Shown: piece after piece, positions 10,109 through 16,867 of the stretch | How the letters are laid out: every line of letters begins with the position of its first letter | Numbering within the stretch: the stretch's first letter is position 1 | Source of the DNA: Deltaproteobacteria bacterium GWA2_38_16 | Lineage (GTDB): Bacteria > Bdellovibrionota > JACOXK01 > 2-02-FULL-40-11 | Direction: 5' to 3' | Assembly (NCBI GenBank): GCA_001797335.1 | Contig: MGPE01000007.1 | Location: 1-24,452 of the forward strand | Length of the DNA stretch: 24,452 bases | Notes under the pieces: generated by a model | The model's input: the letters and a program-made list of their open reading frames with translations, nothing else | Told to the model about the DNA's origin: nothing | Database searches by the model: none | Position numbers and translations under genes: made by a program

Positions 10109-11662
10109 ATGAAAAAGAACTTTTGGGCATTCTTTTTTATGGTGTTTTTCCTTTTTCCCTCTCACTCTGTTCAGGCATTTTCCCTTGCACATACTCAAAA
10201 ATCCACCGTTTATAAATTTTTAGAACCTCTTTTTCGAGCCATGGGGTACCGGGAATTTAAAGTCCATGTCTATGATCAAGAAACTGGGATTTCTTTGGAA
10301 AATGCCGTTGTCATGATGGGTGAAGAAAATTGGTCTAAAACAGATCAAGATGGCAATGTTTCTTTTGATGGGTTTACCCTTCCCCAAGGTCCCCTTACCA
10401 TTACCGCAGCTCACAAAGATTATTCTCGCTATACGATCTTCGATACCGAAGCCACTTCTTTAAATATTCCCATTTCTCCTTTGACCCTAGAACATCCTAA
10501 ATCGACATTGCATGGAGAGTTCACAGGATGGCCTCCGATTGAAGATCATGATGGTATTGTAGATGTCGGATTTGTCCTTCCTTTTGTAGATATTGTGTCT
10601 TTAGTGAATTTTAGTTCTGAAAAATTAGTCGCTCCTTATGTGAAGGCCCATATTTATAAGGATGTCTATGTGCCTGGAAATTTGATTATGCCAGATCAAG
10701 AAGAGCGCTATTTTATTTTTCCTGTATATCTTTCTAAACCTACATACCAAATGCCTTTTACGGTGGGTTCACAACAAAATCTGATTGCGCTTTCAGGCCA
10801 GCTGCCTTTTTCAAAGATGGCCAATGGGTTTATCAATAAAGAACCTTTATCCAAATTATTAAATCTGGTCTCTATTAACCAATTGGGGTTTATTCAAAAC
10901 CTCTCTATCCCCAATCAAAATACTACTTTGGATATTCCTTTGAGCTATACCCTAAAGCCAAAATTTAATGTCACTGTGAATAATCCCCCCCAAAACACAG
11001 AGATTATTTATGTGGCGACTGGATTTTTCAAAGATAATCCCAATGCCTTATTCCCTCTGGACTTCAAAATGAATGGTCGAGAGGACAAAGCCAAAACCGG
11101 TGCTTTAAAATCCTTGGGGGCCTCTAATTTATTTCCTCCTCTTCAAGAAATGATTCTCACGGTGGCGGCTGATTTGTCCCAAAACTCTGGATCTAAAAAA
11201 CGAGATACCTCTATTGTGGGATCCATTAAAAGGCCGTTGGATACAAATCCCATTTATATTAATAGCTTTTCAAATCCGATTGATCTTTCTCAAGCCGAAC
11301 CTCTCAACCAATTTTCCTATCAGGAACGATACCCTTCTGCCCAGCCCATTGCCTCACACTTAAGCATTTCTTTTATTCAAATTGCTCAAAAAGGAACGGA
11401 AAATAAAAAAGGCACTGCTAAAACCTGGTGGACGGTGGTCGCTCCTTCTCAGGTGAAAGAATTTAAACTGCCTACTTTGCCCCAAGATCTTTCGAAAATG
11501 CCTCCTCTGGCCCCCGATCAATCATTGGAATGGACGGTCAATGTCTTTGGGTTGAATGAAAATAACTATATCTTTGATTATGATAACTTAAATAGCACTA
11601 TCTTAGCTCAAAACTTAACGCATTTTTCAATGAACACGATGAATATTGCCCCTGTACCATGA
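10109..11662 (+). CDS. exported protein with N-terminal CnaB-like domain
   Basis: I do not recognise a named family for the whole 517-residue protein. It has a Sec signal peptide (MKKN then hydrophobic 5-19, probable cleavage after VQA at 21-23). Residues about 49-123 look like a carboxypeptidase-regulatory/CnaB beta sandwich, with V-x-V-x-D-x-x-T-G at 52-60 and T-D-x-D-G-N-V-x-F at 78-86. The remainder is beta-rich, with many Pro, Asn and Ser residues, no transmembrane anchor, no catalytic motif and no cysteine in the mature part. An extracellular or periplasmic structural or binding role is plausible but unproven. It has its own promoter, a good Shine-Dalgarno (GGAG), and a stop overlapping the next gene by four bases, so the two products probably act together. 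Confidence 0.8.
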   Translation: MKKNFWAFFFMVFFLFPSHSVQAFSLAHTQKSTVYKFLEPLFRAMGYREFKVHVYDQETGISLENAVVMMGEENWSKTDQDGNVSFDGFTLPQGPLTITAAHKDYSRYTIFDTEATSLNIPISPLTLEHPKSTLHGEFTGWPPIEDHDGIVDVGFVLPFVDIVSLVNFSSEKLVAPYVKAHIYKDVYVPGNLIMPDQEERYFIFPVYLSKPTYQMPFTVGSQQNLIALSGQLPFSKMANGFINKEPLSKLLNLVSINQLGFIQNLSIPNQNTTLDIPLSYTLKPKFNVTVNNPPQNTEIIYVATGFFKDNPNALFPLDFKMNGREDKAKTGALKSLGASNLFPPLQEMILTVAADLSQNSGSKKRDTSIVGSIKRPLDTNPIYINSFSNPIDLSQAEPLNQFSYQERYPSAQPIASHLSISFIQIAQKGTENKKGTAKTWWTVVAPSQVKEFKLPTLPQDLSKMPPLAPDQSLEWTVNVFGLNENNYIFDYDNLNSTILAQNLTHFSMNTMNIAPVP

Positions 11663-12120
11663 AGAATCGGCTCTATTTTATTTTTATTATTTTAGGAGGG
11701 ATTATATCCTGTAGCAGTTCATCTCCCCCTCCTCCTGATCCTTCTCAAACCAACACGTTATCTCAAACCTATAAGGCATCTTATGATGCAGCTTGGAGTG
11801 CTACTCTAAAAGCTCTTTCCAAATACCAAGTTACTATTTCAAATAAAGATACTGGCCTCATTAAAACAGATTTTATAATAAGCCACGCTCCCAAAGAAAC
11901 AAAATGGAAATTAGAGTTAAGGCTTCTTGCCTCCGAAGCGGAAGAAACGGTTAAAGTTCGTGTTGAAAAAGAAGCCTATATAAGCCCTGGATTTTTGGAA
12001 GCATGGGAACCGCTTCAAACCGATTTTTGGGTTGAAAAGGCTCTTCTTTACAGAATTGGACGGATCATTGAATTAGATGCCCGTGTGGATAAACTTACAA
12101 CACCACCCGCCACTCCATAA
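11659..12120 (+). CDS. BamC-like outer-membrane lipoprotein
   Basis: This 153-residue protein starts at ATG overlapping the preceding stop (ATGA). Residues 1-18 form a lipoprotein signal with the box I-I-S-C (lipidated Cys18), followed by a Ser/Pro-rich linker. The domain that follows begins YKASYDAAWSATLKALSKYQ and continues ISNKDTGLIKTDFI. This resembles the helix-grip domain of BamC/NlpB, where a 'Y..AW..v...L.......D...G.i.T.w' pattern is characteristic. BamC is an accessory lipoprotein of the outer-membrane protein assembly machine. Here there is only one such domain, and the linkage to a CnaB-like exported protein is not the usual dapA-bamC context, so a different envelope role is equally possible. 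The gene converges on the IHF-beta-like gene with a 7-base gap and no recognisable terminator. Confidence 0.75.
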   Translation: MKNRLYFIFIILGGIISCSSSSPPPPDPSQTNTLSQTYKASYDAAWSATLKALSKYQVTISNKDTGLIKTDFIISHAPKETKWKLELRLLASEAEETVKVRVEKEAYISPGFLEAWEPLQTDFWVEKALLYRIGRIIELDARVDKLTTPPATP

Positions 12121-12454: not shown

Positions 12455-13438
12455 TTATCGTCTGTATTTTAGAAAATGATCCTGAGAAGATGAGGGTGGT
12501 TCACTTTCCTCTTCTTTATTTTCTCCTAAAAGATCTATTCTATCGTAAAGAATATGACCTGAAGCATCTAAAATCCCCCGCTGAATCAAAAACTCTTGTA
12601 CATAGCGGGCATGAGCCACAATTTTTTCATTATGAGATTCAAGTTCTTCTTTAAGGTCATCCACTAAGATCTGAGTTTTAAAAGAAGAAGGATATACTAA
12701 ATTCACCCGTTGTGAAACTTCACAGATTTTCCTAGTTTCAGAAGATCTGGCTAAATCATCCGTTGAGGCAATGGCTGTGGGAGGGTAATATTTATTTAAA
12801 ATTTTACTCACTCCCGGAATAAAATTCCACCAGGACGTTATGGCATCATCATAGGCATAACTCACAAAATCCGCGCAGGTTCCCATCTGTCCATATTCTT
12901 CGCGCGACTTTTCATCTTTCATTCTTTCTAAGGCATTTTCTCGTACCAAAAGAGAACCTTCTAAAGGTGTTACTCGATAAATGGCAAAATCCCTTCGATA
13001 GGTAGAACTATGATTAGCATATCGCCTCAAGGTCTCTTCATCTTCAGGAATACTTTCACCCTCTTCCTCGCCTTCCTCCTCATCATCTTCTCCTTTCGGC
13101 TGCTTTCTAAAAATAGGAGGATAAAAACTCCAGGTCACTATATTTTTCCCTTGTTCAATATCGGTAATAAATTCTGAGTGTGAAAAGTGAAGAGGTAGGG
13201 GAACCGTAAAATTAAACACATCTTTTGTTCGGGTAAGAGCGACAATCCCTCCGCCAAATTCCAAATAATCACTTGAATCATCCGTAATACGCTGAAGAAT
13301 AAAATCTCCAGGAGATGCTAAGAGAGCACACACTTCAAGAGGATAAATATTGGTGAGTTGATAAGAACCGCTCTCTGCTCCTACACTAAAAAGTAAGAGC
13401 AGAGAGGAAAAAACAAATTTCTTCGTGGGATCCCCCAT
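12455..13438 (-). CDS. exported permuted papain-like (YiiX/NlpC-P60-type) protein
   Basis: This 327-residue protein starts at ATG 13438. A TTG one codon upstream would add one residue, and no clear Shine-Dalgarno separates the choices. The signal peptide covers about 1-24. The order of motifs suggests a circularly permuted papain-like fold of the YiiX/DUF830 kind: PGDFIL (43-48), F-S-H-S (85-88, candidate catalytic His87), IYRV (153-156), C-A-D-F-V-S-Y-A-Y (188-196, candidate nucleophile Cys188) and S-T-D-D-L-A (225-230), which resembles the usual T/S-P-D-D-L-A. Family members include amidases and peptidases acting on cell-wall or lipid substrates; the substrate here is unknown. A strongly acidic insert (117-135, almost all Asp, Glu and Gly) lies between His and Cys. 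The gene is 11 bases behind the large repeat protein and shares its promoter. Confidence 0.6.
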   Translation of the reverse strand: MGDPTKKFVFSSLLLLFSVGAESGSYQLTNIYPLEVCALLASPGDFILQRITDDSSDYLEFGGGIVALTRTKDVFNFTVPLPLHFSHSEFITDIEQGKNIVTWSFYPPIFRKQPKGEDDEEEGEEEGESIPEDEETLRRYANHSSTYRRDFAIYRVTPLEGSLLVRENALERMKDEKSREEYGQMGTCADFVSYAYDDAITSWWNFIPGVSKILNKYYPPTAIASTDDLARSSETRKICEVSQRVNLVYPSSFKTQILVDDLKEELESHNEKIVAHARYVQEFLIQRGILDASGHILYDRIDLLGENKEEESEPPSSSQDHFLKYRR

Positions 13439-13449
13439 CAAAGAAAAAG

Positions 13450-15690
13450 CTATTTTTTAAGCTTTTTCTTATGAATCTCGGGGGAAAATTCCATAATAAC
13501 TTGGCTATAGGCTTTTCGAGTAGATCCTTTATCAATCTTACCCCGAAGTTTCCATAGCGTTTCTCCTAAATCCTGATATTGAGCCTGAGCTCGTCCTTTT
13601 ACCTGAGGATCTGAAGAGAAGGCCTGAGTTTTATATTTTTGAGCCAGTTGTCCTGCCATGGTATCGGCAGGGCGATTTTCCCATACCGATGAATTATGGT
13701 ATTTATTCACTTCATCTTGGGCAATGGCTAGAACGCGATCTTGTACGGCTCCCAATCGAATTTCTGTCTCACTTTGGCTTAGCCCTTCAACTTGTTGGTT
13801 CACCAATGCATGAAAGTATGAAGCCAAAGAGGAAGAACGATCGATGGTTACACTATCGCTTCCAGAATGCATTTCTTCATCTCCCATGACCAAGACCGCT
13901 CGTATATTAAATGTCCCTTTATCAATTAAATGCAACGGATCTAAACCTGAGAAAGAAATATCCACAGGTTTTTTCTTGGTACCGGCTTCCAGCGGAGGAA
14001 GATTTCGTTCAATCACATCGATTTCAGGAATTTCAACTCTCAGTATCAAAGACGAAGGCGTTGGATTTTTTGAAGGATTGCTCAGATAAATTCTAAGCTG
14101 TCCTGATCCTCGTACCACATCTAAAGAAGATAAAACAACGTTATCTACTTCCGCAATCTTATTGACTTCAAAGCGATTGTAGAGAACTAATCCATCCACA
14201 GAAACACCAATGTTGGCTTGCTCTCTGGCTTGAAGACGCGTGTCGATTCGAGCGATAAAGTCTGTTTCTAACATCTGTCTAGAGATTCTAGGCACATTTT
14301 TATTTTCCTCTGTATCAGATCCTGCTTCAATATCTCCAACCAGTCGAACTTTTACGTCTTTCCCTACCCCGCCTAAGTTTGTTACCAAGGCCTGGGAACG
14401 AATCCACTCACCAGGAGTAAAAATACCATCTTCTTCTGTCTTTCCAATAAAAGTTACTTTATTAATTTCTAATTTTGGATGGCTCATATAATCTTCAAAA
14501 GTGGAATGAAAATTCCCATCGTACTCACCTCTAAAGGTTTCTCGATAACTGTCTCTAGAAACTTCTTGGTATCGACGATTAAATTCTCTCACTTTACCCA
14601 CTTGCATGGCATATATTTTTCCAGTTTCCGTTCCCAGTGCAAGTCCTAAGCCATACCCTCTTTGTATATTTTGATGATAAGCCAAAGAAAAATAATGGCT
14701 CACATAAAATTCATAAGATCCCATAAAGCCATCTGCCCAAATCCGTTGAACTTCATCTCGGGTGAAAATTACTTTTTTCACTTGGCGTATTTCTCGAACC
14801 ACTTTTCCTGTGGCAGGATCTACATGTTCGCTGACTTCTTCAACCATTACATAAGATTCACGCAGATTATCGTATTCGGCTTTGGCTACATCGGGAAGAG
14901 TTTGCCACACAGACCATGCTCGTCGGCTATTTCCCCATCCGTACTCAGCAAAAGATCTGGCTTCCCCTCGTTTGGTATAAAGATCCCAGAAACTAATATT
15001 TCCTAATCCATCAAACGTGGTCGAATTGACATCATGAAAAATAGGGGTTTGGCCTAAATTAGCCGTTGCTTCTCGCAACAATGTTTGCTCATCTTTCATT
15101 CCAAAACCAGATTTTGAATAACCATCAGGAACACCAGCATAGCGATTAATCACTTCTAAAACACTTCTTTCATCATAAACAGGCTTAGGTTCTTGGGCAT
15201 CTTCAACAGCTTGTCTGAAAAGAGCAATCACATCACTTTGAGCCATGGTTTTAGCTTCTCCGCTCGCCGCCTTGATCCCATCTCCTTTAGCTCTTTGAAA
15301 ATCTCCAGTAACCCCTTGTTCCCCTAATTTTACATATTCATCTTTATCTTTGCTGCCTTCAAATGCGTTAAATAACCCTCGGGTATATCCCATCAGAAGC
15401 CCTAATACTTCTCCATTGCCTTGGCCAAAACGCTCTGCCATCCGTCTGGCTTCAGTGGTTCCGCGCTCGCATGCCTTATAGGCTTGAAGATTATTCTCTC
15501 TGGGGTCACTACTTCCTTGGTGTTCATATCGATCACAATAAGGATAGCGCTCTGCAGGGGCATGAATTTGGTTAATATCAATGACGGAACCATCATATTG
15601 ATCCGGCCATGACCAACCCAGTGGGCTCCAAAGTAGTCCTGCTGTTACAAAAGCATAAAAGATTTTCTGAGAAATATTATTAAATGACAT
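13450..15690 (-). CDS. large exported protein with GX3/tetrad repeats and beta domains
   Basis: I do not recognise this 746-residue protein. It has a signal peptide (about 1-27, ending around GWSW). Two segments show strict four-residue periodicity. Residues 89-109 have Gly at 89, 93, 97, 101 and 105 and Ala at 109. Residues 321-398 form about twenty tetrads, mostly small residue then aromatic or hydrophobic (F322, Y326, V330, F334, Y338, I342, Y346 and so on to F398), with Gly at 345, 349, 353, 357 and 365. This suggests tightly packed long helices. Residues about 405-630 look like Ig/CARDB-type beta sandwiches (FTPGEWIRSQALVTNLGG). The C-terminus is helical and very basic (HKKKLKK). It starts with GGAGGT 5 bases before the ATG and is the first gene of an operon with the papain-like protein. 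A cell-surface or periplasmic role is inferred. Confidence 0.82.
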   Translation of the reverse strand: MSFNNISQKIFYAFVTAGLLWSPLGWSWPDQYDGSVIDINQIHAPAERYPYCDRYEHQGSSDPRENNLQAYKACERGTTEARRMAERFGQGNGEVLGLLMGYTRGLFNAFEGSKDKDEYVKLGEQGVTGDFQRAKGDGIKAASGEAKTMAQSDVIALFRQAVEDAQEPKPVYDERSVLEVINRYAGVPDGYSKSGFGMKDEQTLLREATANLGQTPIFHDVNSTTFDGLGNISFWDLYTKRGEARSFAEYGWGNSRRAWSVWQTLPDVAKAEYDNLRESYVMVEEVSEHVDPATGKVVREIRQVKKVIFTRDEVQRIWADGFMGSYEFYVSHYFSLAYHQNIQRGYGLGLALGTETGKIYAMQVGKVREFNRRYQEVSRDSYRETFRGEYDGNFHSTFEDYMSHPKLEINKVTFIGKTEEDGIFTPGEWIRSQALVTNLGGVGKDVKVRLVGDIEAGSDTEENKNVPRISRQMLETDFIARIDTRLQAREQANIGVSVDGLVLYNRFEVNKIAEVDNVVLSSLDVVRGSGQLRIYLSNPSKNPTPSSLILRVEIPEIDVIERNLPPLEAGTKKKPVDISFSGLDPLHLIDKGTFNIRAVLVMGDEEMHSGSDSVTIDRSSSLASYFHALVNQQVEGLSQSETEIRLGAVQDRVLAIAQDEVNKYHNSSVWENRPADTMAGQLAQKYKTQAFSSDPQVKGRAQAQYQDLGETLWKLRGKIDKGSTRKAYSQVIMEFSPEIHKKKLKK

Positions 15691-15701
15691 GAGATACCTC
15701 C

Positions 15702-15730
15702 TTGAAAAAATTTATATTAGAAGCTATATA
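15702..15730 (+). promoter_or_regulatory. promoter for the barrel gene, shared -10
   Basis: TTGAAA (15702-15707), a 17-base spacer and TATATA (15725-15730). The predicted transcription start near 15737 leaves a 24-base leader before ATG 15761. The -10 hexamer is the same six base pairs used by the opposing promoter. Confidence 0.65.
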
Positions 15731-15753
15731 TATATTCCCCTCAGGTTGGTCAA
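15725..15753 (-). promoter_or_regulatory. promoter for the repeat-protein operon, shared -10
   Basis: On the minus strand, TTGACC (15748-15753) is followed by a 17-base spacer and TATATA (15725-15730). Transcription would begin near 15718, about 28 bases before the ATG at 15690, leaving GGAGGT in the leader. Confidence 0.65.
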
Positions 15754-15760
15754 GCAATAT

Positions 15761-16867
15761 ATGAATCGAATACTGTTTTTTTTAATGCTTCTTTTCTTTC
15801 CCCTTTATGCCTTTTCAAATGATGCCCAAAATGCAGGCCATTTTGATGACTCCCCCTCCCGTGCACGTTTGCCCAATATTTCTCTTCCCACAGGCTATGT
15901 TATTTCGAAGGGTACTCCTATTTTTAGCCATATCGAAATTCAGGATAAGTCTGTTTATTCTTCTAAAACATCTTCTTTCCATAATTTATTCTTAAGAATG
16001 GGAGTGCAATTTAAATCTCTAGATTCTGGACTGCAGCTTAATTTAATGGATGCATTATCTCAAGATAGTGTCATTCGAAATGGCCTCGTTCAAAAACCCA
16101 CCCCAGAGTTTCTAGAAAAACTGTGGGTTTCGTGGGAAGCATTTTCTGTGGGAGATTCAAAAGATCCCTGGCTCGCCTTTTCCCTTCAGGTGGGGCGCCA
16201 AGCCGCCACTCCTTTTGGAGTTTTTGTGCTTCCTTATAGAAACAATATGTCCATTGTAGATGCCAATAAACTGGATCAAGTAGATCTGATCGCTTTAAAT
16301 GCCATGGTTTCACACAATACCGTCATTGAAGTAGTTGCTTTTATGGGGCAAGAACGCACGGCGGGTGCTCAAACAAAAACTCCCAGCATTGCTCTTAACA
16401 TGCTCCATACACTTCGAAATCAAAATATGAATATTTATCTTTCTTTTGCCAATACCCGTGAAGGGTTTATAAACCCCAATCATCTTTTTAATCCCAAAAA
16501 TAGCGCACTCCATCGCCAACGAGGAGAAGAAACCATTGTCGCTTCTGGCATAGAGTATATTAAAGGAAGCCTAACTTTTTCTCTGGAAAGTAGCTATGCT
16601 CATACTTTAGACCCCCTTTTTAAAGACGAATTTATTTTTTCTGCTCAAGTGGCATATGAAGTTCCCAATTCCTCAATGACCCTTTTTTGTTCCTATGAAT
16701 ATTTTGGGAGCACCTTTCAGAATGAAACCGGGCACCTCCTAAGTATTGGGGCCCAATGGAAAATTTTAGAAAATGTTTATTTTATGATTGAAGGCACAGA
16801 AATTTGGCCAACAGATCAAGAAGACATTTCCGCCATCTCCGCCGGACTTTTGATTACTCCTCACTAG
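15761..16867 (+). CDS. predicted outer-membrane beta-barrel (porin-like) protein
   Basis: This is a 368-residue protein counted from ATG 15761, where a textbook signal peptide begins (MNRILFFLMLLFFPLYAFS). An in-frame ATG at 15689 exists, but it overlaps the opposing gene's start and would place the promoter inside the coding sequence. The mature part consists of alternating-residue amphipathic strands (FLRMGVQFKSLDSGLQLNL, WLAFSLQVGRQAATPFGVFV, MTLFCSYEYFGSTF), with a G-R-x-x-x-P-F-G element as in trimeric porins. Barrel strands appear to continue to the end, although the last residue is His and not the usual Phe. A channel or adhesin role in the outer membrane is inferred; specificity cannot be read. 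It is divergent from the exported-protein operon and may be co-regulated through the shared promoter. Confidence 0.7.
   Translation: MNRILFFLMLLFFPLYAFSNDAQNAGHFDDSPSRARLPNISLPTGYVISKGTPIFSHIEIQDKSVYSSKTSSFHNLFLRMGVQFKSLDSGLQLNLMDALSQDSVIRNGLVQKPTPEFLEKLWVSWEAFSVGDSKDPWLAFSLQVGRQAATPFGVFVLPYRNNMSIVDANKLDQVDLIALNAMVSHNTVIEVVAFMGQERTAGAQTKTPSIALNMLHTLRNQNMNIYLSFANTREGFINPNHLFNPKNSALHRQRGEETIVASGIEYIKGSLTFSLESSYAHTLDPLFKDEFIFSAQVAYEVPNSSMTLFCSYEYFGSTFQNETGHLLSIGAQWKILENVYFMIEGTEIWPTDQEDISAISAGLLITPH

Follow-up and report, generated by a model that had tools for sequence, protein, structure and literature searches.

Results

Organization of the locus

The window, i.e., the whole analyzed stretch of 24,452 nucleotides, comes from an assembly of 2.0 Mb in 19 contigs and encodes on its minus strand, at positions 13450 to 15690, a protein of 746 residues that we call the GX3 protein. 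The assignment is based on the open reading frame, the homologues, and an AlphaFold2 model. A basic start followed by a hydrophobic stretch was read by eye as a probable Sec signal peptide (about residues 1-29; 15604 to 15690, minus strand), a segment with pLDDT<50. The same stretch is the most hydrophobic 19-residue window of the protein; past it, no 19-residue segment has a mean hydropathy above 0.84, and there is no other transmembrane-like segment. This reading supports an initial annotation of the DNA, which had taken the protein to be exported. The sole two cysteines, Cys52 and Cys74 (15469 to 15537, minus strand), are kept in 32 of 33 homologues, and a disulfide between them would probably tether the N-terminal end to the first of the GX3 helices. 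In the homologues at L039, L044, and L045, a cysteine at 31 or 17 sits in a lipobox-like setting, and these proteins may be lipoproteins.

The remaining features lie on the same minus strand. Helix A (residues 68-113; 15352 to 15489), defined by periodicity, conservation, and AlphaFold2, holds a ten-unit GX3 run at 73-109. Helix B (residues 128-163; 15202 to 15309), defined by conservation and AlphaFold2, has a shorter small-residue tetrad run at 134-150. Helix C (residues 311-403; 14482 to 14760) is predicted as one helix of 93 residues from conservation, Fourier analysis, and AlphaFold2; its tetrads are hydrophobic at 314-342, small at 345-369, and aromatic at 370-398. Two tandem Ig-like beta domains (about 407-510 and 511-615; 13846 to 14472) were assigned from AlphaFold2 and structure matches. 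A C-terminal helical region (residues 618-746; 13453 to 13839), recognized from AlphaFold2 and the sequence, ends in the basic tail that had been described previously, and a basic C-terminus is common among the homologues.

Eight bases downstream on the same strand lies a partner gene (12455 to 13441) of 328 aa with an exported-looking N-terminus. Linkage, invariant residues, and a motif make its product a candidate permuted papain-like cysteine hydrolase. A divergent ORF of 392 aa, as listed at 15689-16867, overlaps the start of the GX3 gene by 2 bases; its true start is likely an ATG near 15758 (MNRILFFLML...), which would leave a short promoter region common to both genes. The region 10109-12120 contains two overlapping unannotated ORFs of 517 and 153 aa, the shorter of which has weak matches to DUF3576/DUF3568.

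Conserved four-residue periodicity

The initial annotation had drawn attention to positions 14497-15430, which correspond to residues 87-398. The GX3 run that it placed at residues 89-109 is real, but this is the second half of a longer run, in which Gly or Ala occupies ten successive fourth positions from 73 to 109 (11 units with Ser allowed). None of 2000 shuffles reached this ten-unit run. Across 30 aligned homologues (an effective 17 at 60% identity), Gly/Ala/Ser account for 100% of the residues at positions 77, 81, 85, 89, 93, 97, 101, and 105, and positions 73 and 109 are 82% small.

For residues 321-398, described earlier as a repeat of mostly small then aromatic or hydrophobic residues, the continuous mod-4 register stands, but the units are not uniformly of that kind. 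Rather, hydrophobic residues occur at 314, 318 and so on to 342, small residues at 345-369, and aromatic or hydrophobic residues at 370-398, Ser378 being a conserved exception within the last stripe. Positions 349, 353, 357, 361, and 365 are 100% small among the homologues, and about 1 in 2000 shuffles attained the 20-unit score of this region for small plus hydrophobic residues. A third, weaker run, absent from the initial annotation, was observed at 134, 138, 142, 146, and 150 (88-100% small).

Fourier analysis of conservation gave a peak at period 4.0 for small residues in both the first run and that of helix C (column permutation p<=0.0002 and p<=0.0016), whereas hydrophobic residues across the whole of helix C peaked at 3.8, not 4.0. 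Over residues 128-163, the periodicity was not significant in this analysis. We looked for a DNA tandem repeat beneath the protein periodicity and found none. Homologues at 20-40% identity retain the pattern in the 30-protein alignment.

Predicted structure

AlphaFold2 with 13 homologues predicted the whole protein at a mean pLDDT of 83 and a pTM of 0.46, with helices at 68-113 and 128-163, a single helix at 311-403, beta domains at 407-615, and C-terminal helices. A prediction for residues 31-406 gave the same helices (pLDDT 75.5, pTM 0.54); it is not independent evidence since it uses the same homologues. The expectation that the periodic regions form long helices rather than disorder is thus borne out by prediction; we found neither loss of the periodicity among homologues nor a disordered or globular fold in these regions. 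The low pTM makes the packing of helices A, B, and C and the arrangement of the domains uncertain.

The beta part aligned with a GH2 Ig domain (VIA-align Z 12.5, rmsd 2.0, 100 residues) and with transglutaminase tandem barrels (Z ~11, rmsd 6.1, 192 residues). Foldseek matched the Ig-like domains to RbmA and SdrG/SdrD, this fold being very common. For the helical part alone, Foldseek returned no match at E<=0.001, which does not by itself mean a new fold. The best VIA-align match of this part was a designed three-helix bundle and was weak (Z 6.1, rmsd 9.9, 189 residues aligned). Computed geometry for a 4-residue repeat on a helix of 3.6-3.65 residues per turn gave a pitch of 54-63 Å and a crossing of ~36-41 degrees at 6.5 Å; the strict 4-residue repeat therefore implies a right-handed wrap. 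The known crossing angle of GxxxG contacts is close to this computed value.

Distribution of the family and its larger relatives

Matches to the GX3 alignment were found in 86 of 368 genomes of the phylum. The named relatives belong to Bdellovibrionota (Bdellovibrionales, Bacteriovoracaceae, Halobacteriovorax, and Oligoflexia), along with one MAG labelled Proteobacteria; the relatives from the 368-genome search are of the same phylum as the host of the GX3 protein. A wider contig scan relied on two peptide patterns and does not prove that the family is missing from other phyla. No match was found in plasmid and phage collections. As a family probe, a DNA pattern of ten spaced GG matched 253 of 358 genomes and was rejected, as many of the matches listed were Gly-rich low-complexity DNA.

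Larger relatives of 650 to 1270 aa were also found. In some, long coiled coils are coupled to as many as 31 GX3 units in succession; one protein carries 16 hydrophobic/aromatic-X3 units in a row, and weak CARDB or DUF7932 (PF25560) matches occur in some of them. The combination of coiled coils with GX3 runs of 17 to 31 units, or the 16 aromatic-X3 units, makes these proteins look fibrous. One such relative (L080:2071-5880), an exported-looking protein of 1269 aa, combines a very long coiled coil with a 17-unit GX3 run. At four further loci of the same phylum (L131, L132, L136, and L137), runs of the GYxDGYxDG type with Gly at every fourth position apparently represent additional GX3 proteins.

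Linkage to a candidate cysteine hydrolase

The initial annotation did not include the linkage of the GX3 gene to its downstream neighbor. The partner is present in 12 of the 368 genomes and adjoins a GX3 gene in 11 of these; in the twelfth genome, a fragment of it lies at the edge of a contig. Among the 11 adjacent cases, it lies downstream in seven, upstream in three, and divergent in one. The co-occurrence is significant (Fisher p 6.6e-7, genomes being treated as independent). In a tree of 33 GX3 proteins, the partner-linked ones fall in one half, which includes a nested partner-less clade; partner presence requires 2 changes on this tree, a number as low as which was seen in 0 of 500 shuffles. 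The other half of the family has no partner gene, and the basic function of the GX3 protein therefore does not depend on it.

His88 is invariant in all 10 partners covering it, as is Cys189 in all 11. With His before Cys, the order is that of a permuted papain, and we hypothesize a catalytic role for these residues in a secreted cysteine hydrolase-like enzyme. The motif C-[SA]-[DE]-hydrophobic followed by [ST]-P-[DE]-N-[LVI] occurred, among 763 distinct ORFs of the fetched loci, only in partners and PF05708 proteins; this count is not an independent test, since the pattern was written after seeing both families. The copy in the partner at 12455-13441 departs from the second half of the pattern. 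A Pfam search of seven partners gave no match, PF05708 included, and G000 likewise showed no PF05708 match. By hhalign, the motif columns of the partner and PF05708 align, but 5 to 11 of 60 column-shuffled decoys equalled the scores; therefore, we do not claim homology between them. No relatives of the partner were found in viral contigs. Separately, genomes of this phylum (L099-L105, L108, and L110) were seen to carry many exported proteins of ~500 aa with a C-terminal Peptidase_C92 domain, with up to 8 matches in one genome.

Discussion

The present study shows by computation a conserved four-residue periodicity, long helices and an Ig-like fold class in the predicted model, and a gene linkage in a protein for which no homologue of known function was found. 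The initial interpretation was right in kind and is supported in part, and the observation behind it is confirmed and extended here. We propose, at about even odds in our own judgement, that the GX3 protein is an exported scaffold of the envelope or surface, built from close-packed GX3 helices and working, in this subfamily, with the cysteine hydrolase-like partner. In this proposal, the N-terminal half would form long helices, whose stripes of Gly/Ala at every fourth position and of aromatic residues would allow very close packing. The stripes would bind helices A, B, and C to one another, and helix C would probably also pack on helix C of a second copy, giving a rigid rod that displays the two Ig-like domains and the helical tail. 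In the partner-linked subfamily, the GX3 protein could then be a scaffold, a targeting subunit, or a regulator of the co-encoded protein. We infer export from the N-terminus, and any contact between the two products is presumed. The partner's enzyme activity and the oligomerization are likewise presumed, and peptidoglycan as the substrate is guessed at from what enzymes of this kind generally do. Several findings count against the proposal: the low pTM of the whole protein and of its helical part, the better fit of the helix C hydrophobics to 3.8 than to 4.0, the lack of the partner in the other half of the family, the non-significant relation of the partner to papain-like families by profile comparison, and the lack of functionally characterized homologues.

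The tetrad helices might instead do no more than stabilize a three-helix bundle within a single chain, in a binding protein that stays monomeric and forms no oligomer or rod. The designed bundle is indeed the best structural match of the helical part, and helices A and B (82 residues together) could cover most of helix C (93 residues). However, that match is a weak one of the kind that common arrangements give, relatives with 31 GX3 units would require partner helices of equal length, and the Lto1 precedent is one of pairing between proteins (PMC4523923). We regard such a monomer as somewhat unlikely, though deserving serious weight. A surface adhesin or fiber subunit that binds ligands by its Ig-like domains, the hydrolase linkage being regulatory or unrelated, would agree with the Foldseek matches of the tandem domains to RbmA and SdrG/SdrD, with the fibrous look of the larger relatives, and with the absence of the partner from half of the family. 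Yet these matches fall on a very common fold, and the linkage survives rearrangements in all 11 intact cases, which leaves the adhesin doubtful.

Two further alternatives carry far less weight. Long helices could serve a pore-forming toxin of the alpha-PFT type, and Foldseek did relate the helical part to several alpha-pore-forming proteins; these hits are non-significant (E 0.7 to 4), and the hydropathy past the signal peptide is too low, so this reading was rejected as very improbable. That the periodicity is a product of chance or of compositional low complexity might be thought of, as Gly-rich stretches with Gly at every fourth position are common across these genomes. The absence of a DNA repeat and the failure of shuffles to reproduce the run argue against it, and its conservation in diverged homologues refutes it, leaving a negligible probability. 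Going beyond the scaffold proposal, Bdellovibrionota may possess a superfamily of exported fibrous proteins that follow a right-handed tetrad code. Gly/Ala stripes would interlock with aromatic stripes under a non-heptad rule outside the membrane, over ten to more than thirty units, and in one branch the proteins would be scaffolds devoted to a secreted cysteine hydrolase. We consider this broader idea speculative and, as it stands, unlikely.

Comparison with known systems

Searches of the GX3 protein against Pfam, NCBIfam, PHROGs, and the PDB, and of the PDB with a homologue profile, gave nothing significant, in agreement with the earlier view that no known family covers it. The Ig-like fold of its predicted model is shared with CARDB, other bacterial Ig-like domains, and DUF7932 (PF25560). 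The description of the beta domains as CARDB-like thus holds for the fold class (Z up to 12.5) but not for CARDB membership: the GX3 protein had no match to CARDB (PF07705) at E<=1, and the homologue values (0.065 in 1 of 14; 0.013 in the large relative L073) were below cut-off. The weak homologue matches to CARDB and DUF7932 are all under the curated cut-offs, and the GX3 protein itself has none.

Like the deca-GX3 proteins Yae1 and Lto1, the GX3 protein has about ten GX3 units (73-109) on one predicted helix. Its search with Yae1_N (PF09811) gave no match at E<=1; two of 14 homologues matched (best E 0.18), and the large relative L073 reached E 0.0056 with 16.8 bits against a cut-off of 27.5. 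Unlike the GX3 protein, Yae1 and Lto1 lack Ig-like domains and act in the cytosol as iron-sulfur adaptors. The deca-GX3 glycines of Lto1 are required for binding Yae1 (PMC4523923).

FliH and YscL, which are cytoplasmic flagellar/type III proteins, also carry a GxxxG-repeat run on a predicted helix. The signal-peptide-like N-terminus of the GX3 protein speaks against such a location, and the FliH profile gave no match to it at E<=1 (Pfam) or E<=0.1 (NCBIfam). Their runs have the form AxxxG(xxxG)mxxxA with m up to 12 in FliH, which forms a dimer (PMC2674601). In contrast, GX3 relatives reach 31 units, and FliH/YscL have no signal peptide, long aromatic tetrad helix, or Ig-like domains. In 2009, long GX3 helices were considered very rare, no PDB helix having >3 contiguous units (PMC2674601). 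A non-exhaustive literature search found no explanation for the packing of a strict 4-residue repeat along extended helices.

For the partner, the His-before-Cys order is common to Peptidase_C92/YiiX-type proteins (PF05708), and C92 proteins of the same phylum share C-[SA]-[DE] followed by [ST]-P-D-N-[LV]; the partners differ in having no profile match, and the profile comparison is not above decoys. Long GX3 helices are already known, and what is new is an uncurated exported family and its gene partnership. The exported proteins provide a conserved natural series of up to 31 GX3 and 16 aromatic-X3 units, which makes the long-range packing of strict 4-residue repeats directly testable, and the close linkage of a gene for a possible cysteine hydrolase provides a tangible starting point for studying function in a phylum known for preying on bacteria.
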